Assembly (NCBI GenBank): GCA_030622125.1 | Contig: JAUXGM010000040.1 | Location: 1 to 15,930 of the forward strand | Source: a bacterium | Lineage (GTDB): Bacteria; AUK180 | Length of the DNA: 15,930 nt | Reading direction: 5' to 3' | Part shown: positions 2,901-15,712 of the stretch, piece by piece | Numbering within the stretch: position 1 is the stretch's first letter | Layout of the letters: each line of letters begins with the position of its first letter | Translations under genes and position numbers: made by a program | Notes under the pieces: model-generated | The model's database searches: none | The model's input: the letters and a program-made list of their open reading frames with translations, nothing else | Told to the model about the DNA's origin: nothing

Positions 2901-2929
2901 ATTATACATTTTTTTTCTTTAAATATCAA
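2901..2929 (-). promoter_or_regulatory. Promoter of the 31-codon ribosomal-protein gene
   Basis: Read on the minus strand, -35 TTGATA (2924-2929) and -10 TATAAT (2901-2906) are 17 bp apart. Transcription should begin near 2894, giving a leader of about 24 nt that contains the GGAGG at 2877-2881. The -35 box overlaps the TGA stop codon of the M14 gene (2926-2928). Both boxes are near consensus, fitting strong expression of a ribosomal protein. Confidence 0.72.
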
Positions 2930-4644
2930 TGAATAAAAGCGAATTTTATTATTTTTTCAAAAACTTTTTCTTCTTTTTCTAATTTTATATGAGCGAAATA
3001 AATGCCTGACGCCAAGCTTTTCCCATTATCAAAGGTTTTAGATATGATAAACGAATCATTGGTAATATCTTCTGTTGATATTTTTTCGGAAAATTTATAA
3101 ACTAATCCTCCACTTGCCGAGTAAATTGAGCAGTTTTCCCTATACCCGCTGTCATCGGGAATGATAATAAGCATCATATTTTTGTCAATTGAAGGATTTG
3201 GGAATATGTAGGCAGATATATTTGGTGTATTTAACGAGGTTAAATAAAAATCCTTTTCAATTATATCGTTGTTCATATCAAAATTAAATATTTTGTAGTT
3301 ATATCCCGCTTTTGATACAATAATCGTATAGTTACCGTTTTTCAAGTTCCAATAATATCTACTATTATTATTGTTCTTTCTTGTCCGGATCATATCATAA
3401 TCATTGAGTTCCAATATCTTGATATTGACATTCGTTAACGGTAATCCCGTTTCATTATCGTAGATATAACCGTTAATATAATTTGTATCTAAATTCCTGA
3501 AAAATTCCTTTAAGCCGTCATAATTTTTTTGAGATAATCCGGCTATCTCACTAAACGGAGGATGAAATTCCGTTCCCACCTCAATCGTAAATGAGAATGT
3601 CCCGAGTTTACCATAGAGGTAATCGTCGCTATCGCCGGATGCCGGATATAAAGTCGAACTTTTCATCGGGTCATAGTATCCTGAACTATTTTTCGGAATT
3701 TTGCGGGAAATATTGTAAGAGATCTCATACAATCGATATCTATCGGGAGCATTATCAGAACCGTAACCATAAGGATAGAGTATCATTTCACCATAAGAAT
3801 GATATGAAATCGAACCGATCGGTCTTAACAGACCGAAAAAATCTTTTATTGCGATCGTTTCATATTCGGAAAAAGCCCCTGTACCCGGATAGACATCACT
3901 GAAGAAATTAAAATCAACTCCACTCTCTCCCCAGTGCCAATCATAATTCCTATTCGGGTCAACGCCGTCTGTATCTTCCGCATAAGAATGATTACCGTTG
4001 TTATCCCTGTTATTTTTTCTCCAGTTTGTATCGTATTCCGTATAAACGATCTCTTTGCCGTCGGGATTTACCATCGGAACGAACCATAACTGATAATTAT
4101 TTACGATATTTTGAATAAAAGTATCACCGTTATTATAATCATTGATAAGGTATTTTATCTCATTCATTGCAATCTCAGTCGTTTCAAGTTCCCTTGCATG
4201 ATGTTCAGCCATCACAAGGATATTGAATTCATCCTCATCAAAATCTACATTGTCTGAGATCTTTAATGCCCAGATATCTTTTGCAGTATAGGAATCATTG
4301 TAGGAATCGGTCATTACCTTTTCCCAGGAATCTCCGATATCGTAGAGTTTCACGGTTGCAGGATATGAATTCGCAAGTGTCAGAAGTTCCGCTGTAACCT
4401 CCGAGTATGAATGATAACCGGAAAGGTTTTTATTAACACTTAATATCTCATAATTTTCCGAGAACACCCCTCTTGCTCTTGATAATTTATCTTTATCTAT
4501 TACAACATCAACATAGTTCTTTCCCATTGATGCGATATCATAAGAGGTGTCTATTTGCGCAGGGTTATAAAATCTAACAAGAACTTTTTCCGGATAGATA
4601 AATAAAGATGTGATTATTAGAATTACAATACCTATTCGTTTCAT
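2926..4644 (-). CDS. Secreted M14-family zinc carboxypeptidase with carboxypeptidase-regulatory-like and C-terminal sorting domains
   Basis: This 572-residue metallocarboxypeptidase should remove C-terminal residues from peptides outside the cytoplasm. Residues 1-17 form a signal peptide. The M14 active site is complete: zinc ligands H149 and E152 in EHHARELE, third ligand H282 in ISYHSYGEM, substrate-binding N231-R232 in DPNRNYDWHWG, and catalytic E355 in FTIEVG. Residues about 391-470 (NGYIYDNETGLPLTNVNI...) are a carboxypeptidase-regulatory-like beta domain. The end (about 475-572: FPNPS, IYSASGGLVYKF, ASGIYFAHI) is a diverged T9SS-like tail, matching the type on the C11 peptidase. Together the two suggest use of extracellular protein. 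Its promoter is leaderless in geometry. Specificity cannot be read from the sequence. Confidence 0.9.
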   Translation of the reverse strand: MKRIGIVILIITSLFIYPEKVLVRFYNPAQIDTSYDIASMGKNYVDVVIDKDKLSRARGVFSENYEILSVNKNLSGYHSYSEVTAELLTLANSYPATVKLYDIGDSWEKVMTDSYNDSYTAKDIWALKISDNVDFDEDEFNILVMAEHHARELETTEIAMNEIKYLINDYNNGDTFIQNIVNNYQLWFVPMVNPDGKEIVYTEYDTNWRKNNRDNNGNHSYAEDTDGVDPNRNYDWHWGESGVDFNFFSDVYPGTGAFSEYETIAIKDFFGLLRPIGSISYHSYGEMILYPYGYGSDNAPDRYRLYEISYNISRKIPKNSSGYYDPMKSSTLYPASGDSDDYLYGKLGTFSFTIEVGTEFHPPFSEIAGLSQKNYDGLKEFFRNLDTNYINGYIYDNETGLPLTNVNIKILELNDYDMIRTRKNNNNSRYYWNLKNGNYTIIVSKAGYNYKIFNFDMNNDIIEKDFYLTSLNTPNISAYIFPNPSIDKNMMLIIIPDDSGYRENCSIYSASGGLVYKFSEKISTEDITNDSFIISKTFDNGKSLASGIYFAHIKLEKEEKVFEKIIKFAFIH

Positions 4645-4694: not shown

Positions 4695-4969
4695 CGTCAT
4701 TCTGATTGAGCCCCGAATCAAGTGCGGGATAAACTGCACGATTGAAAAATCTATCTTTGACCTTTGAAAAATGAGATTATCACGGATTTTTTTAAAATCT
4801 TTATAATGACAAGGGAATATAAATGAATAATGAAGAATAATAAAAAAAGATGGATTCCTGCCTTCGCAGGAATGACCCCGTATCAACGGGGTAAACTCCG
4901 AGGGAAGGGGTTCAGAATAACTCCGTATCGAGTACGGGGTAAACTCCAAGAAAGGGGCTCTGAATGACG
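4695..4969. repeat. Non-coding repeat island with terminal inverted repeats
   Basis: The spacer between two divergent promoters holds about 275 bp of repeat-type sequence. Its left edge (4695-4714) reads CGTCATTCTGATTGAGCCCC; its right edge (4954-4969) reads GGGGCTCTGAATGACG, the reverse complement apart from small gaps and a substitution. Inside are three related direct units: 4711-4737, 4876-4902 and 4921-4947. The first and third agree at 21 of 27 positions, and each carries CCG.ATC near its start and GGG.TAAACT near its end. The unit pattern resembles palindromic repeats scattered through many environmental genomes. It may be a small non-autonomous element or a cluster of REP-like repeats. 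No credible gene is present in 4679-4992. Confidence 0.6.
4854..4873. repeat. Perfect 8-bp palindromic hairpin inside the repeat island
   Basis: ATTCCTGC (4854-4861) pairs with GCAGGAAT (4866-4873) around a CTTC loop, and GAC follows. This is the widespread 'ATTCC-TGC-CTTCG-CAGGAATGAC' type of dispersed palindrome. A second stem, ACCCCG/CGGGGT (4875-4880 with 4887-4892), follows immediately. There is no T-tract, so a terminator role is doubtful. Confidence 0.65.
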
Positions 4970-4992: not shown

Positions 4993-5021
4993 TTGAAAAA
5001 TATTAAAAAATTTGTTATAAT
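4993..5021 (+). promoter_or_regulatory. Promoter of the nine-gene operon, leaderless geometry
   Basis: -35 TTGAAA (4993-4998) and -10 TATAAT (5016-5021) are 17 bp apart. Seven nucleotides separate the -10 box from the ATG at 5029, so the expected +1 is at the start codon. An 11-bp direct repeat, TTGAAAAATAT at 4982-4992 and again at 4993-5003, doubles the -35 region. The surrounding A/T tracts could act like an UP element. Confidence 0.7.
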
Positions 5022-5028
5022 AAAAAAT

Positions 5029-6066
5029 ATGAATAAAAGGCAATTAACGATTATTATTGTAGAGGTAATTTTGATTTTGCTTGGTGGGATATTTTATTTT
5101 ATGGGTGACCGGTTTTTTCAAAAAAAACAAGACCTTAGTAATGAGGTTCTGAAAGAAAAGATCGTTGCCATTAATTCAAAGATTACTTTATATGAGAAAA
5201 AAGATCCTACCCAAAAATTTACACCGAATTTTCTTCGGATCAGAAAAGAGTATAATGATCTTAATCTTTTATTTGTTGACAAGAAGTATCCGGAAGCACT
5301 TGAAAAATATACTATCCTTTTGGGAAAAGTTGAAGAGATAAATACAAAGATTGAAAATTATTATGCTAAATTAAAAACGGATGAAGAAAAGAAAGTATTA
5401 GAAAAAAAATTATTGGCGGAAAAGAAAAAAACTGCTGCTGCACAGGCTAAAAAAATTAAAACGAGCTATCCGAAACCAGCCCCAAAAACCGTTTTGTCTT
5501 CATATACACCGTTAAAAAAAGTTTCTTCCACACCAACGCAACCAAAACCGGAACCGGTGAAAGAAATCACAACAGCTACTACTTCGACACCGCTGCCCGT
5601 TGATACAAAGGGAAAGATTGACATCAATAATGCATCATTTGAAGAATTACAAAAACTCCCGAGAATTGGTCCGGTCAAATCGAAAAGTATTATTGATTAT
5701 AGAAATTCACATAACGGATTTAAAAATGTAGCTGATCTTGAAAATGTTAGCGGGATCGGTCCCAAAACAATGGCTTCTTTGAGACCTTTAATCTATTGCG
5801 GAAACTATGGCGGTACAACATCGAATACCTCGGATACATCCGCAGCAATAACAAATGTTAAAGAAAAAATCAATATAAACACGGCTTCTCAAACCGAACT
5901 TGAAACAATTCCAAAAATTGGACCTAAAACCGCCCAGAATATTATAAATTACAGAAATGAATTCGGAAGTTTCAAGAGCTACGAAGATATTCTTAATGTG
6001 CCGCGAATCGGTGAAAAAACTTTGGAAGCAATAAAACCTTATATAACATTAGGAGAAGAGAAATGA
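5029..6066 (+). CDS. Membrane-anchored ComEA-like protein with two helix-hairpin-helix DNA-binding domains
   Basis: This 345-residue protein probably binds double-stranded DNA outside the membrane, as ComEA does in natural transformation. Residues 6-25 are one hydrophobic N-terminal segment (anchor). Residues 30-145 are charged and helical, likely coiled coil, ending in a K/A-rich stretch. Residues 146-192 form a Pro/Thr/Ser-rich linker. Two ComEA-type HhH units follow: 196-256 (DINNAS, LPRIGPVKS, VSGIGPKT) and 279-340 (NINTAS, IPKIGPKTAQNIINYR, VPRIGEKT). Classic ComEA has one such unit on a shorter stalk. The ATG at 5029 is chosen over the in-frame TTG at 4993 because that TTG is the -35 box. 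The last codon overlaps the next ATG by 4 bp (ATGA). A role in DNA uptake is inferred; envelope binding of nucleoid or extracellular DNA is also possible. Confidence 0.78.
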   Translation: MNKRQLTIIIVEVILILLGGIFYFMGDRFFQKKQDLSNEVLKEKIVAINSKITLYEKKDPTQKFTPNFLRIRKEYNDLNLLFVDKKYPEALEKYTILLGKVEEINTKIENYYAKLKTDEEKKVLEKKLLAEKKKTAAAQAKKIKTSYPKPAPKTVLSSYTPLKKVSSTPTQPKPEPVKEITTATTSTPLPVDTKGKIDINNASFEELQKLPRIGPVKSKSIIDYRNSHNGFKNVADLENVSGIGPKTMASLRPLIYCGNYGGTTSNTSDTSAAITNVKEKININTASQTELETIPKIGPKTAQNIINYRNEFGSFKSYEDILNVPRIGEKTLEAIKPYITLGEEK

Positions 6067-8027
6067 AGATCAGTAACCTGATAGAAAAATTACCGGAAAA
6101 GGAACAGAAGTATTTTATTTATCTCATAAAGGATTTTAATGATGAGGAAAAGGAAAAATTCCTTAGTGAGATTTATGAACTTACCGAAGTAGAACAGAAT
6201 CTGATATTAAATATGCTTTTACGGATCTCACCCGAGCAGGTAAAATCAATTATTTACAATTCTAATGAAAATGGACCATTGATGATCGTCGGAGATGAGA
6301 TCTCCTCCAAAAGGACGATACTTGCCCATAGAATTGCATATCATCTAATTGTAAGGGGCTTAAAGGTTGATGAGATACTTGGATTTACCTTCTCAAATGT
6401 AAGTTCAGGTAATATTATTGATCTTATTGCGAGCTCACTTCCTGAAAAAATGATCTTTAAAATGGATATTGATACATTCAATACAATGGCATTGAAATTT
6501 CTTACCGATTATGTTTTAGGAAGCATAAATATTGAAAAAATCGGATATAAGATTACTCCCAAATTTCGGGTTCTTATAGCAAGAGAACAGTTACTTCTTT
6601 TGAAGAGAGCGCTTGAAGAATCGAAAATTCCATCGGCAGAGCTCGGCTTTTCATCACTCGTTAGTGATATTATTTCTTTAAAAAGAGGACTGATCGATCC
6701 TGATACTGCGGCAAAAAATGCAAAAACAGATAGGGAAAAGAAGATTGCTACTGTTTATAGAATATATCAGGAAAAACTTGTAAAAAATAATACCTGTGAC
6801 ATAAATGATCTTGTTCGCTTGACCATAAAACTATTTAAAAAATCACCGCAAGTATTGGATTACTACCGAAATAAATATAAAATGATCATAATAGATGCTT
6901 ATCATTATTCAAATTTTGCTCAATACCAATTGATAAAAACGCTTGCAGAGGGTAAAAAAGATATAACTATTACTGCCGGATACAAGATCAATACCTTTCA
7001 ATGGAGTCCAAATGAAACAAATTATGCGAATAAGTTCAAAGAGGATTTTGCAAATGGAGCCATTGTGGAATACGAAAGAAGTCCAATAGATGTTGAAGAA
7101 ATATTAAAACGTGAAATTTTTATTAACACAGGTGAAATTCCGGAGGATATTGAACCGGCGGAAACTGCAGATTTTAATGATTATATTGATGGCAAAGCAC
7201 TTATTCGTTTAGAAAAAGAAACAGAGGTGAATGAAGCATCATTCGTTGTAAATTCCCTGGTTAAGAAAAATCAAGAGGGAATTGTTTTTGGCAAGATGGC
7301 AGTAGTTGTCCGACAAAATCAACAGTTAGAGACATTAAAAAAAGTCTTAAAAGGAGCGAACATTCCTTACTTTATAGTAGGAGATAAGTTATTGACACGA
7401 GATGAGATCAGAAATGTAATGTCTCTTCTTAAGGTTGTATATTATATTTCACAGAAAAAAAAATTAGAACAAAAAGAATTACTTGAACTTAACACAGCGA
7501 TCAAAGATATCTTTCTAAATATCATACCGTTGCAACTTGAATTTAATAGCTATATCCAATTGGAAAAAATTGCTTTAGAAGAAAATAAAGATATCTTTAC
7601 TGTTCTTAAAGAAGAAAAAAAAGAAAAAGATCGTTTTAAAACGAGATTTCCGTTAAAAGATAGAGAAATTATGGGATTTTTTAGAGATCTCTTGGAAACC
7701 GTTTCAAAGGATATAAATGAGTTTGATGTAGCAATTCTAATTGAACTTTTAACAAATGAAACAAAATTTTTAGACTCTCTGGCAAGTGAAGGAAAGATGA
7801 TTGGAAAAATCAAGGCGGAGAATATTAAATATCTTTACCTGTATGCAACAGAGTTCGTCAAAAATAACAAAAAAAGAGGTATCGAAAATCTCAAGGATTT
7901 TATCAATGATATAGATAACAAGAGAAAAAAACAAGAGGAAGAAGCAAAACTACATCAGGATGATGTAAAATTGATCACATTAAATAGCATGGAAGATATA
8001 TCGTATCAGATATATTATTTAATTTAG
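6063..8027 (+). CDS. Catalytically dead UvrD/Rep-like (SF1A) pseudo-helicase
   Basis: This intact 654-residue frame keeps the UvrD/PcrA layout but has lost its catalytic residues. After an extra helical N-terminus (1-53) come a Q-motif-like SPEQV (Q59) and a Walker A position with K83 kept, but SSKRT (81-85) in place of GxGKT. Then follow AHRIAYHLI, TFSN (109-112) instead of TFTN, and DTFNTMALKFL. The Walker B position reads IIIDAYHYSNFAQYQL: D278 is kept, the catalytic Glu is A279. Motif III GDxxQSIY has become AGYKINTF (305-312). Domain 2A is well kept (414-460: VVVRQNQ, IPYFIVGDKLL, EIRNVMSLLKVVY). Motif V reads ITLNSMEDIS and the protein stops 8 residues later, lacking motif VI. ATP hydrolysis is unlikely; a structural or DNA-binding role, as for the helicase-like domains of AddB and RecC, is plausible. 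A GGAG precedes the ATG. Confidence 0.82.
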   Translation: MKISNLIEKLPEKEQKYFIYLIKDFNDEEKEKFLSEIYELTEVEQNLILNMLLRISPEQVKSIIYNSNENGPLMIVGDEISSKRTILAHRIAYHLIVRGLKVDEILGFTFSNVSSGNIIDLIASSLPEKMIFKMDIDTFNTMALKFLTDYVLGSINIEKIGYKITPKFRVLIAREQLLLLKRALEESKIPSAELGFSSLVSDIISLKRGLIDPDTAAKNAKTDREKKIATVYRIYQEKLVKNNTCDINDLVRLTIKLFKKSPQVLDYYRNKYKMIIIDAYHYSNFAQYQLIKTLAEGKKDITITAGYKINTFQWSPNETNYANKFKEDFANGAIVEYERSPIDVEEILKREIFINTGEIPEDIEPAETADFNDYIDGKALIRLEKETEVNEASFVVNSLVKKNQEGIVFGKMAVVVRQNQQLETLKKVLKGANIPYFIVGDKLLTRDEIRNVMSLLKVVYYISQKKKLEQKELLELNTAIKDIFLNIIPLQLEFNSYIQLEKIALEENKDIFTVLKEEKKEKDRFKTRFPLKDREIMGFFRDLLETVSKDINEFDVAILIELLTNETKFLDSLASEGKMIGKIKAENIKYLYLYATEFVKNNKKRGIENLKDFINDIDNKRKKQEEEAKLHQDDVKLITLNSMEDISYQIYYLI

Positions 8028-8274: not shown

Positions 8275-10290
8275 ATGAAAAGAATAATTTTTTGTATTTT
8301 TCTAATATTAACTGTTTTTGTTTGTGCATCTGATTTAGAGATCACATTTCTCAATATCCATCAAGGTGATAGTATTTTATTATCAATGCCGAATGGAAAG
8401 CATTATCTTATTGATGGCGGGCAGCCAACTTATTATGACCCTGTAAAGGATATTTACTATTCACATTTTGATGCGGGGAAGGATGTAATACTACCGTATT
8501 TAAAAGCTCATAATATAAAAAAACTTGATGGTATTTTAGGAACACATCCGGATGCAGATCATATCGGCGGTTTGATTTATGTAATAAATCATTTTCCGGT
8601 GGACACCGTATATTACAACGGTAAAACACATACAACCCTAACCTTCAAAAATTTTATGAAAGCAATTAAGGATAATCATTTAAAATATGTTGAACTCAGA
8701 GATGGGGATGTTTTAAATTGGGACAAGAATGTTTTAGTTAATGTTATTGCCCCGACTGAAAATGAGGTTAAATATCCGAAAAACAATAATGATACCTCTA
8801 TTGTTCTATACATTAAATATGTGGATGTCAGTTGTATATTGACGGGAGATGCGGAGTATGGCGAGGAAGGAAGGATGGTATCCGACTATGGAAATAATTT
8901 AAAAGCAGATATTTTAAAATTGGGACATCACGGCTCAAAATCCGCTTCAAGCCCGAGTTTTTTAAAAGCGGTAAATCCTATTTATGGTATTATTTCCGCC
9001 GGTAAAAATAATAAATTCGGATTCCCTCATAAAGAAACACTTTTAAGAATTTATAATCAAAATCCAAAAATGAAGATTGTAAGGACCGATTATAATGGAC
9101 ATATTTCTTTTATTACGGATGGTAAAACTATAAAAGTTGAACCTCAAAAAGAGAAGATCTTTACAATTTCAGAGGTTTTAAAACAAGAAAATATTAATCC
9201 GGAATCCGGGAAAAAAGATTATAGTATAAATGTTCCAGCAGATATAAAAAAAATCGATATCAACAAAGCATCAAGAAAAGAATTGATCACCCTGCCGCGG
9301 ATCGGTCCGAAAACAGCAGATAATATTATCAATTATAGAAATGAAAGCGGTCCGTTTAAGACAATTTATGACATTACCAATGTTCCGAGAATCGGTGAGA
9401 AAACCTTTGAAAAATTGCAACCATATATTATGGTTGAAGGTGAAATTGTCGCTGTTAAAAACAGTAGTGAGCAAAATAATATTGTTAATAATTCAAATAA
9501 TGAAAAAATAAACATTAATACCGCATCACAGAAGGAACTTGAAACTTTACCGAGAGTGGGTCCCAAAACCGCACAAAATATTATTAATTACAGAACAGAG
9601 AACGGTCCATTTAAGACAATTCATGACATTACCAATGTACCGAGGATCGGAGAGAAAACCTTTGAAAATCTAAGACCATATATTATGGTTGAAGGTGAAA
9701 CTTACAAAGATAATAATGCCTCAAATAAAATAGAGGATTTATCAAATACATCTGATAAGAAAAAGATCAATATCAATACCGCATCACAAAAAGAACTCGA
9801 AACCCTGCCTCGTGTCGGTCCGAAAACAGCACAGAATATTATAAATTATAGAAATGAACATGGACCATTTAAGACAATTCATGATATTACCAATGTATCA
9901 AGGATCGGTGAGAAAACCTTTGAAAATTTAAGACCCTATATAACCGTTGCAAACGATAATGACAAAACAAAAAACGAACATAAATCAATAGATAATCCCG
10001 CAAAAAAAAAAAATGAATTAAAGGTAGAAGATACTGCAACAGATAAGGAAGAAACAATAACGATCAAGGGCGGATGCAGTAAAGACCTGAGTATTAAAAA
10101 GATCAATATCAATACTGCATCACAAAAGGAACTTGAAGCATTACCTTATGTAAATAGAAGAAAAGCACTGGAAATCATAAACTATCGTAAGGAAAACGGA
10201 CAATTTAAGTCTGTTGACGAGATCAGAGATGCTATAAAAATCAAGCAAAAAACATTGGAAAAATTGAGACCGTATATTGTGGTGGAGTAA
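8275..10290 (+). CDS. Secreted ComEC-type metallo-beta-lactamase-fold hydrolase fused to four ComEA-type HhH domains
   Basis: Residues 1-18 are a signal peptide. Residues about 20-290 are an MBL domain of the ComEC/Rec2 C-terminal type: NIHQGDSILL and HYLIDGG, metal motif H91-P-D93-A-D95-H96, ILTGDAE (D192), LKLGHHGS (H218, H219) and FPHKE (H252). All expected metal ligands are present, so phosphodiesterase or nuclease activity is likely. Four HhH units follow at about 326-386, 411-472, 497-558 and 609-671, joined by Asn/Lys-rich linkers. Units 1-3 keep the hairpins RIGPKT or RVGPKT and RIGEKT; unit 4 reads YVNRRK and KIKQKT and has lost the hairpin glycines. The ComEC membrane channel is absent. 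The protein thus combines a DNA grip and a probable nuclease outside the membrane: uptake processing or scavenging of extracellular DNA are both possible. No clear Shine-Dalgarno is seen. Confidence 0.83.
   Translation: MKRIIFCIFLILTVFVCASDLEITFLNIHQGDSILLSMPNGKHYLIDGGQPTYYDPVKDIYYSHFDAGKDVILPYLKAHNIKKLDGILGTHPDADHIGGLIYVINHFPVDTVYYNGKTHTTLTFKNFMKAIKDNHLKYVELRDGDVLNWDKNVLVNVIAPTENEVKYPKNNNDTSIVLYIKYVDVSCILTGDAEYGEEGRMVSDYGNNLKADILKLGHHGSKSASSPSFLKAVNPIYGIISAGKNNKFGFPHKETLLRIYNQNPKMKIVRTDYNGHISFITDGKTIKVEPQKEKIFTISEVLKQENINPESGKKDYSINVPADIKKIDINKASRKELITLPRIGPKTADNIINYRNESGPFKTIYDITNVPRIGEKTFEKLQPYIMVEGEIVAVKNSSEQNNIVNNSNNEKININTASQKELETLPRVGPKTAQNIINYRTENGPFKTIHDITNVPRIGEKTFENLRPYIMVEGETYKDNNASNKIEDLSNTSDKKKININTASQKELETLPRVGPKTAQNIINYRNEHGPFKTIHDITNVSRIGEKTFENLRPYITVANDNDKTKNEHKSIDNPAKKKNELKVEDTATDKEETITIKGGCSKDLSIKKININTASQKELEALPYVNRRKALEIINYRKENGQFKSVDEIRDAIKIKQKTLEKLRPYIVVE
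9250..10287 (+). repeat. Four diverging coding repeats (HhH units) within the MBL fusion gene
   Basis: Units lie at about 9250-9432, 9505-9690, 9763-9948 and 10099-10287. Units 2 and 3 are near-copies, sharing runs such as ATTTAAGACAATTCATGA and GAGAAAACCTTTGAAAAT. Unit 1 is close behind and unit 4 most diverged. This indicates recent internal duplication. The second HhH unit of the gene at 5029 has the same NINTAS...GPKTAQNIINYRNE core, so both genes drew on one ancestral unit. Confidence 0.8.
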
Positions 10291-13649: not shown

Positions 13650-13839
13650 ATCGGAACTTGAATTAGAAGTTGGAAGGCTTGTAAAAAATCTTTACAAATA
13701 TTTTAAAGTGGTATCGGTAGTATCAAAAAAAAATCAGAAACTTACAAATGTTCTTATCGGCATTAAAAAGGAACTATTGGAAATAAAAGAAGAATTAAAC
13801 GAATATAAAAAGAGGCAAAATGGAAAAAATAAAGATTAA
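13633..13839 (+). CDS. Small coiled-coil protein, ZapB-like, upstream of zapA
   Basis: A 68-residue charged helical protein with hydrophobic residues in heptad spacing (LELEVGRLVKNLYKYFKVV, LIGIKKELLEIKEEL) and a basic tail. It overlaps pheT by 17 bp and zapA by 20 bp, implying coupled translation. In FCB genomes a short coiled-coil gene often lies between pheT and zapA, and ZapA's partner ZapB in other bacteria is a similarly small coiled coil linking the Z-ring to the chromosome. The link to ZapB rests on context and shape, not on a recognised motif. Confidence 0.68.
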   Translation: MVGSDKSELELEVGRLVKNLYKYFKVVSVVSKKNQKLTNVLIGIKKELLEIKEELNEYKKRQNGKNKD

Positions 13840-14128
13840 CATTGCCGGTGAGTCCTTTTCATTAGAAAGTGATAATCTCGAGAAGGTGAAAATGTTTCAG
13901 GAATTTATTGATAATAATCTTGAAAAAGCAAAGGCAATAACCCATCTGAACGATTCTAAAACGAACTTGGCGTATGCCTATCTTTCACTTACCATTGAAA
14001 TGTGGGAAAATATCAAAAATGCCTTCAACATTGATGATGATCAGCCGAGTGCGAAGAGCAAAATTGAACTTTTGAATAATAAATTACAATCAAAAATAGA
14101 GGAGTTAAATAATGAATTGGGGAAATAA
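13820..14128 (+). CDS. zapA: Cell division protein ZapA
   Basis: This 102-residue FtsZ-associated protein bundles FtsZ filaments at the division site. The N-terminal part (KIKINIAGESFSLES) is the short beta/alpha head seen in ZapA; the rest is a long helix ending in coiled coil (KSKIELLNNKLQSKIEELNNELGK) used for dimer and tetramer formation. AGAGG (13811-13815) lies 4 nt before the ATG. Its end overlaps the nuclease gene by 17 bp. The location after pheT and a small coiled-coil gene is the conserved FCB arrangement. Length is normal. Confidence 0.87.
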   Translation: MEKIKINIAGESFSLESDNLEKVKMFQEFIDNNLEKAKAITHLNDSKTNLAYAYLSLTIEMWENIKNAFNIDDDQPSAKSKIELLNNKLQSKIEELNNELGK

Positions 14129-15578
14129 TAACAAAAAAAAGGTGTGGATAACAACAGGAAAAATCGGTATTTTTAAAACCTGCCCATATAGATATCGTAA
14201 GCTTTACATATCAATGGACACGCCGAAAAAAGAATGGAAACCAAACCCAAACTATGAGAATCTTTCAAAGAACATTAAGAAAAAAATTGAAGAAAGCAGC
14301 AAGATATTTAGAGGGCGAATTCCAACAATAATAGAGAATATTGATCCTAAGGATGAAAGATTCGATGAAAAGACGCTTTTGGATTTTGAAAGGGAATTAA
14401 ATGAATTTATAAGTGAAAATAAATTTTCAGAATACAAGCAATATGAAAAACCTAAGTTTATTGAATACAGTGATAATTTCGGATTGCTTGCGAAACCTGA
14501 TTTTACGATCAATATCAACAAGATACCAACAGCTGCTTTTATCTCGAACAGTAAATATGTTAAGATAAAAGAAAATTTAGAATATGATATGGAGCATCTT
14601 TTAAATGTATGGACATTGAGAAAAAAATTCTCTGAAATTAAAAGAATTCTTTATATCTTTCCACTCGGTAAAAAATTACTTTGGGCGGATATAGATGAGG
14701 GCGATTTCGAGAATGGCGAAGAAGAGATCAGAAAATTTATCAATGATCTTTCAAAATCCAATTTTCAATCGGGAAGAAATCCTTTTTGTGATTGGTGTGA
14801 TTTTCAAGACAATTGTCCTGCATGGAAGGGGTATCCGTTCACGATCAAAAAGGAAAAAAGAAAAGTCATACCCAGATTGAGTTATTCCAAACTTGATCTA
14901 TATAAAAGGTGTCCTTTTGCCTACAAAAAGGTCTATGTAGATAAGATACCGCAAAAGGCAAGGGATTTTTTCAGCACCGGAACAACGGTCCATAATGTGA
15001 TGGAGGAGATTGAACAGCTTGACATCCCGTTAAGTGTAAATGATATACATAATATATATTTAAAAAAATGGGAATCCCCGGGTTTTATTTCAAAAGAGGA
15101 TGAGGCGGAACAAAAAAAAGCGGTGTGGGCATGGTTTGAAAAATATTTAAAAGAAATCGCATTAAATCCATTTAAAAAAGCGAAATGGACAGAGTTATAT
15201 TTTCAATTTCCAATAAAGAACAAGGTAATGGTTAATGGATTTATAGATAGGATCGATAAAAATGAAAATGGTAAATATGAGATCATTGATTATAAAACAG
15301 AGAATATGATCAGAAGTCAGGAGGATGTGGATAGTGATATGCAGTTAACGGCATATTCTTGGGCGGCAAAAAAACTCGGAATGGAGGTTGAACGCCTTTC
15401 ACTGCATTTTGTCCGATTTCAAAAAAACATTTATACAACAAGAACCGATGCTGATATTGAAAGATTTGAAAAAGAGGTTTCAGAATGGTTTGATAAAATA
15501 GAGACGGAAAAAGAATTTCCACCGAAAAAGAACAAATACTGTGATCATTGTGATTTCAAGGAGATTTGTGGAATATAA
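14112..15578 (+). CDS. Tandem PD-(D/E)XK (RecB/AddB/Cas4-type) iron-sulfur nuclease: dead first copy, intact second copy
   Basis: This 488-residue protein contains two copies of a RecB-like nuclease fold. Copy 2 (about 252-488) is complete: SYSKLDLYKRCPFAYK, H294 in GTTVHN, D379 in NGFIDRID, D393 and K395 in EIIDYKT, Q411 and Y415 in QLTAYSW, and Cys C267, C477, C480, C486. Copy 1 (about 10-240) has the matching KIGIFKTCPYRYRK, KPDF (D130) and DMEHLLNVW, but FISNSK (143-148) replaces IIDYKT, so the catalytic Asp and Lys are lost. It still keeps C24, C226, C229 and C235. Both copies share the CX2CX5C spacing of the AddB/Cas4 cluster-binding staple. The expected action is Mg-dependent cutting of DNA ends in repair, recombination or defence. 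GAGGAG (14099-14104) lies 7 nt before the ATG; the gene is last in the operon. Confidence 0.86.
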   Translation: MNWGNNNKKKVWITTGKIGIFKTCPYRYRKLYISMDTPKKEWKPNPNYENLSKNIKKKIEESSKIFRGRIPTIIENIDPKDERFDEKTLLDFERELNEFISENKFSEYKQYEKPKFIEYSDNFGLLAKPDFTININKIPTAAFISNSKYVKIKENLEYDMEHLLNVWTLRKKFSEIKRILYIFPLGKKLLWADIDEGDFENGEEEIRKFINDLSKSNFQSGRNPFCDWCDFQDNCPAWKGYPFTIKKEKRKVIPRLSYSKLDLYKRCPFAYKKVYVDKIPQKARDFFSTGTTVHNVMEEIEQLDIPLSVNDIHNIYLKKWESPGFISKEDEAEQKKAVWAWFEKYLKEIALNPFKKAKWTELYFQFPIKNKVMVNGFIDRIDKNENGKYEIIDYKTENMIRSQEDVDSDMQLTAYSWAAKKLGMEVERLSLHFVRFQKNIYTTRTDADIERFEKEVSEWFDKIETEKEFPPKKNKYCDHCDFKEICGI

Positions 15579-15664: not shown

Positions 15665-15712
15665 GCGTATATGTGTATATGCGAATATGCGAATATGCGA
15701 ATATGTGCATAC
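15665..15712. repeat. Tandem 8-bp repeat, six units, three identical
   Basis: The units are GCGTATAT, GTGTATAT, then GCGAATAT three times, then GTGCATAC. The period is exact at 8 bp over 48 bp, and the outer units are diverged. The tract lies between the operon terminator and a promoter. It is a simple-sequence tract prone to copy-number change, with no obvious function. Confidence 0.8.

Follow-up and report, generated by a model that had tools for sequence, protein, structure and literature searches.

In this study, we analysed a bacterial DNA stretch of 15,930 nucleotides (contig JAUXGM010000040.1; hereafter the window), in which one gene encodes a protein made of two Fe-S PD-(D/E)XK domains in tandem (Table 1). 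The gene order is ComEA, a UvrD-like pseudo-helicase, a gene of 75 aa, a metallo-beta-lactamase (MBL)–ComEA fusion, pheS, pheT, a zapA-like gene, and the nuclease gene, the last two sharing 17 bases. Promoter and terminator scans around the nuclease gene gave matches at chance level only. The MBL–ComEA protein, with four ComEA-like helix-hairpin-helix repeats, is a fusion of two competence modules. The window also holds genes for a C11 clostripain-family protease (260–2761) and an M14 carboxypeptidase (2926–4644), which lie on opposite strands and both carry a type IX-like C-terminal sorting tail. A 24-base repeat occurs in two copies (ACGGGGTAAACTCC...) in the intergenic region before the ComEA-like gene (4886–4957), and an 8-base tandem repeat (GCGAATAT-like, with overlapping copies) lies just 3′ of the nuclease gene (15665–15712).

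Table 1. Features of the nuclease gene and its neighbours, in window coordinates
Feature	Position	Strand	Basis
ComEA-like protein with helix-hairpin-helix repeats	4993..6066	+	TIGR01259 E 5e-41
UvrD/PcrA-like pseudo-helicase, possible partner	6063..8027	+	UvrD-helicase E 6e-34
Secreted ComEC-type MBL fused to ComEA helix-hairpin-helix repeats	8275..10290	+	TIGR00361 E 7e-45, TIGR01259 E 2e-87
ZapA-like gene directly upstream of the nuclease gene	13820..14128	+	PF05164 E 4e-4, just under its cut-off
Tandem Fe-S PD-(D/E)XK nuclease gene, 488 aa, ATG start	14112..15578	+	ORF, profile matches, model
N-half (residues 1–252), predicted catalytically degenerate Fe-S PD-(D/E)XK domain	14112..14867	+	hhalign, model, PDB matches
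C24, first cluster cysteine of the dead half	14181..14183	+	invariant in 20/20 N-halves
F143-I144-S145, degenerate counterpart of D393-Y394-K395 (DYK)	14538..14546	+	hhalign columns; residues vary among family members
C226-X2-C229-X5-C235, dead half	14787..14816	+	invariant in 20/20 N-halves; CX2CX5C in 74/74 upstream domains
C-half (residues 253–488), predicted intact Fe-S PD-(D/E)XK nuclease domain	14868..15575	+	PDDEXK_1, Cas_Cas4, PDB matches
C267, first cluster cysteine of the live half	14910..14912	+	four-cysteine set
D379 ... D393-Y394-K395, catalytic residues of the C-half	15246..15296	+	invariant in 45/45 last domains
C477-X2-C480-X5-C486, live half	15540..15569	+	four-cysteine set

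Two homologous domains in one chain

The original prediction aligned the two halves of the protein by eye. The motif pairs on which it relied, KTCPYRY (with C24) and KRCPFAY (with C267), and DMEHLLNVW and DMQLTAYSW, are all present, and the CX2CX5C motif at 226/229/235 pairs with that at 477/480/486. Direct BLASTP of residues 1–252 against 253–488 gave an E value of 6e-10 (22% identity over 255 columns), and hhalign comparison of N-halves with C-halves gave a probability of 96.8 (E 2.5e-10) for the window family alone and of 99.9 (E 5.9e-36) when distant members were added. Judged from these alignments, the likeness of the two halves is homology and not chance.

The C-half retains the core fold and all six catalytic residues (H, D, D-x-K, and QxxxY) of the AddB/Cas4-type PD-(D/E)XK nucleases, together with the characteristic arrangement of one N-terminal cysteine (C267) and a C-terminal CX2CX5C (C477, C480, and C486). 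The four cysteines of the N-half likewise stand in the spacing of the AddB/Cas4 Fe-S staple; the full catalytic set of D, D-x-K, and QxxxY is missing from this half. In the hhalign alignment with distant members, F143 and S145 of copy 1 stand opposite D393 and K395, indicating that the Asp and Lys of the DYK motif were lost from this copy while its cysteines were retained, as had been proposed. D379 pairs with D130, which is kept in the window protein and lost in some relatives, and Q411 faces a Glu. Given the residues opposite D393, K395, and Q411, the N-half is not predicted to be a nuclease, although it is related to the AddB/Cas4-type nucleases by fold and, on the sequence evidence, by descent. 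Its cysteine site may hold a 4Fe-4S cluster; zinc is an alternative, since a zinc version of the AddB-type site exists (PMC3466216).

Searching each half separately against nuclease profiles, a check that came with the prediction, succeeded for the C-half, which matched Pfam PDDEXK_1 (E 3e-36) and Cas_Cas4 (E 9e-10), and succeeded for the N-half over its tail only (PDDEXK_1, residues 193–236, E 0.033). Pfam and NCBIfam run on the N-half alone gave a weak tail match or none, and phmmer against the PDB sequences gave nothing useful. As Pfam by itself would have missed the N-half, profile–profile and structure comparison were used. The model of the whole protein has a pLDDT of 91.4 and a pTM of 0.84, and the order of its secondary-structure elements repeats in both halves, with the exception of a helix at 309–319 that is found in the C-half only. 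Modelled alone, the N-half gave a pLDDT of 83.8 and a pTM of 0.80; its best PDB matches were AdnA (Z 11.9 over 221 residues, 4.4 Å), ACE1 (Z 11.2), and AddB (Z 10.1), and its residues 1–243 superpose on AddB 777–1138. The C-half matched the same three structures with Z scores of 19.7, 17.1, and 16.2, respectively. Both halves match AddB/AdnA/Cas4/Dna2 folds, and the PD-(D/E)XK fold on which the prediction had been staked was found over the whole length of the N-half. The clustering of the N-half cysteines, on which the prediction had also been staked, was judged indirectly, from their spacing and from the structural alignment with AddB 777–1138. According to the models, both halves are AddB/Cas4-type PD-(D/E)XK domains, and the profile and structure matches bear out the proposal of a dead and a live domain in one chain.

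Conservation and descent of the tandem family

A scan of 84,980 species genomes yielded 49 loci, about 44 of which belong to the tandem nuclease family. Lineage names given here are the titles of metagenome-assembled records, and single cases may be wrong. Because the scan pattern included the cysteines of the last domain, their retention in last domains partly reflects the search itself; neither the upstream cysteines nor any catalytic residue formed part of the pattern. Chains contain two, three, or five domains. The majority have two, comprising the window family, Elusimicrobia, Endomicrobia, Lindowbacteria, CSSED10-310, Euphemobacter/Tritonobacter, and one Dependentiae bin. Three domains (about 770 aa) occur in rumen Riflebacteria, and five (about 1290 aa) in the eight records L046, L048, L049, L055, L062, L064, L067, and L071, most of which are Riflebacteria or Ozemobacter. 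The third domain of the five-domain chains is always without the DYK Asp.

The two kinds of domain differ sharply in their catalytic residues. H294, D379, D393, K395, Q411, and Y415 are kept in 45 out of 45 last domains, whereas D-D-K is kept in 37 of the 72 scorable upstream domains and the complete set of six in only three (L044 and L050, of the Lindowbacteria type, and L059, from Elusimicrobia). The idea that upstream domains are dead without exception was rejected on account of these three and of the many Riflebacteria upstream domains that have D-D-K and lack QxxxY. The residues found instead also vary with lineage: I, V, Q, S, N, A, F, E, or Y at the position of D393, and A, M, V, N, or Y at that of K395. 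The cysteines show no such variation. CX2CX5C is present throughout the upstream domains, and the N-terminal cysteine in 73 out of 74, the exception being a fragment truncated where its contig stops; assigned by alignment column, this first cysteine is present in all 69 placeable upstream domains. Among 20 aligned N-halves (mean column identity 35%), no position other than the four cysteines is invariant.

A maximum likelihood tree of the domains splits into a clade of last domains (UFBoot 100) and one of upstream domains, the latter with a weak value of 63. Domains 1 to 4 of the Riflebacteria chains all fall on the upstream side, indicating one old duplication followed by amplification of the upstream type. 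By this tree, the duplication is old and common to several phyla and not private to the window protein, and a recent lineage-specific duplication was rejected. By parsimony, the metal triad was lost five or more times. For the only close pair (L039/L041), dN/dS was 0.032 in the N-half and 0.035 in the C-half; as the value of the dead half is as low as that of the live half, the dead half is not decaying, and a decaying pseudo-domain was rejected. At larger distances the N-half changes faster, with identities between members of 31–43% versus 49–69% for the C-half. Taken together, the residue counts across the family and the dN/dS values agree with the original prediction that selection holds the cysteines and the fold, not catalysis. 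With last domains that are always catalytic, upstream copies in the same chain that have lost catalysis repeatedly and in different ways, and none that has lost a cysteine, the family constitutes a natural experiment that separates the purpose of the Fe-S site from the purpose of the active site.

Competence genes beside the nuclease

A gene for ComEC, a ComEC-type MBL, or ComEA lies near the nuclease gene in 23 loci, the window included, from six lineages (linkage was defined by BLAST and identity by NCBIfam on representatives). The gene orders differ among the six. In Elusimicrobia the run is ComEC, pseudo-UvrD, MBL, nuclease, a small gene, an SLBB/ComEA-like gene, and ComEC; in CSSED10-310 it is ComEC, ComEA, MBL, nuclease, and a DHH gene, each gene abutting the next. 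In both lineages com genes abut or overlap the nuclease gene. ComEC proper and DprA of the window genome are encoded elsewhere in the genome. Within the stretch read, no com linkage was found in Riflebacteria, in the nearest outgroup (L047), or in a few others.

Based on the gene neighbourhood, we infer a competence role for the tandem nuclease. The occurrence of the gene in com clusters of several phyla, and beside recJ in part of the window family, suggests that its substrate is probably single-stranded DNA, incoming or broken, of the kind that arises in natural transformation or recombination. Against a com role stand the loci without com linkage and, in the window, the position of pheS, pheT, and zapA between the com genes and the nuclease gene. 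A less probable but substantial alternative is that the protein serves DNA repair or recombination in general, as an exonuclease with no part in uptake, its com linkage being an accident of shared operons. The direct succession of recJ in two genomes of the window family (L040 and L042), the DHH gene that follows in CSSED10-310, the position of the Riflebacteria arrays outside com clusters, and the AddA/AddB candidate genes elsewhere in the window genome, by which such repair enzymes are already there, are all consistent with repair. However, an accident would have to account for com genes adjoining the nuclease gene in six lineages in differing orders, in two of which (Elusimicrobia and CSSED10-310) the genes abut or overlap.

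It is very improbable that the MBL protein, the UvrD-like protein, and the Cas4-like nuclease make up an anti-phage defence system. The PADLOC models Cas4, GajB/RTasHel, and LmuA/RTasMBL do match the three window proteins, but at the superfamily level only; moreover, the MBL protein is a secreted ComEC/ComEA-type fusion, and the cluster is kept beside pheST-zapA across the window family, unlike mobile defence islands.

Relation to known systems and possible roles

The tandem nuclease resembles several known proteins. With AddB (of AddAB) and AdnA (of AdnAB) it shares the PD-(D/E)XK fold, one N-terminal and three C-terminal cysteines, and the CX2CX5C spacing; it differs from them in having no helicase part in its 488 aa and two to five nuclease domains, the upstream ones mostly degenerate, and the window genome has separate AddA/AddB-like genes. 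Cas4, solo Cas4, and the Argonaute-associated Cas4-like ACE1 have the same Fe-S exonuclease fold as the C-half, but these are single-domain proteins, and the recurrent neighbours of the tandem nuclease are com genes, not cas genes. The NCBIfam scores fall short for both AddB (23.5 bits against a cut-off of 486.5) and the Cas4 equivalog of CRISPR systems (54.2 bits against 65). The tandem nuclease belongs to the AddB/Cas4 branch by fold and descent and is, by these scores, neither AddB nor Cas4. A literature search for tandem, dead, or com-linked Fe-S PD-(D/E)XK nucleases, in which the PD-(D/E)XK notation searches poorly and subscription journals are thinly covered, returned no description of the family, and Fe-S nucleases with two to five domains in tandem are apparently new to the literature.

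The closest parallel for the dead half is the C-terminal nuclease-like domain of RecC, a PD-(D/E)XK domain without catalysis that serves DNA handling and forms a hoop for single-stranded DNA (PMC1185551). RecC is a separate subunit of RecBCD, whereas the tandem nuclease joins dead and live domains in one chain and its dead copy keeps the four cysteines. We consider it somewhat better than an even chance that the protein is a two-domain AddB/Cas4-type exonuclease for single-stranded DNA from transformation or recombination, in which the dead domain guides the strand. The C-terminal Fe-S domain would cut DNA; the N-terminal domain, with the same fold and four-cysteine staple and, at the level of sequence and model, no active site, would bind a DNA strand or end and guide it into the live domain, as in RecC. 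The domain tree shows an old duplication and several losses of catalysis; on this account, the upstream domain or domains would have been retained for a non-catalytic job. By analogy, DNA guidance is the most likely function of the dead domain. The original prediction had suggested a DNA-end recognition or regulatory module, a role that the dead half may have. Its net charge in the window protein speaks against guidance, being barely above that of the C-half (+1 versus -1 over aligned columns).

A purely structural role is a serious rival, because the AddB cluster is a staple needed for structural integrity (PMC3466216) and the cluster role in human DNA2 is structural (PMC7311471). The dead domain would then be a scaffold for oligomerisation or for holding the live domain, its Fe-S or zinc site stapling the fold without contacting DNA; the cluster may indeed be kept solely as a fold staple. 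The drift of N-half residues around cysteines that alone are invariant family-wide is consistent with such a scaffold, and the pTM of the whole-protein model suggests a fixed packing of the halves. On the other hand, 37 of 40 chains, not all independent since some are related, have upstream domains more basic than their last domain, which also favours DNA guidance, and some upstream domains keep D-D-K, which a pure scaffold would not need. On balance, we regard the scaffold as rather unlikely, a shade below the repair alternative. The retention of cysteines without catalysis would also suit a redox or metal-sensing switch by which the dead half regulates the live one. This is improbable, however, as redox control of human DNA2 is independent of its cluster (PMC7311471) and the AddB-type site exists in the zinc version mentioned above.

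Strand guidance by the dead domain may involve the pseudo-helicase as a partner. AddB itself has an N-terminal helicase-like domain that is dead and acts as the Chi scanner (PMC4824097), and the window pseudo-helicase likewise has a UvrD fold that lacks working motifs and is accompanied by an Fe-S nuclease; it differs in being a separate gene in the com cluster and in ending after motif V. Pseudo-helicase and nuclease together could represent an AddB split into two genes. A more elaborate and doubtful version is a motor-less, AddB/RecC-like transformation machine in which the pseudo-UvrD and the mostly dead Fe-S array would take over the incoming strand beneath ComEC for threading or scanning and for trimming, the array length (two, three, or five) setting the grip. 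Should the com link prove functional, the DNA-uptake machinery of several little-studied phyla would gain a cytoplasmic nuclease and perhaps also the pseudo-helicase.

Only the window family and some Elusimicrobia have the pseudo-helicase in the cluster, and a true PcrA is encoded elsewhere in the window genome. In the window protein the Walker A motif reads GDEISSKR, and although predicted to be inactive, the pseudo-helicase is better kept than the nuclease across the window family (63–72% identity). The Elusimicrobia gene encodes a full-length dead UvrD that has lost its Walker A. By hhalign, true PcrA is matched well by both the window protein (E 4e-37) and the Elusimicrobia protein (E 8.8e-19), whereas their direct comparison is weak (probability 49.6), suggesting that the two may have died independently.
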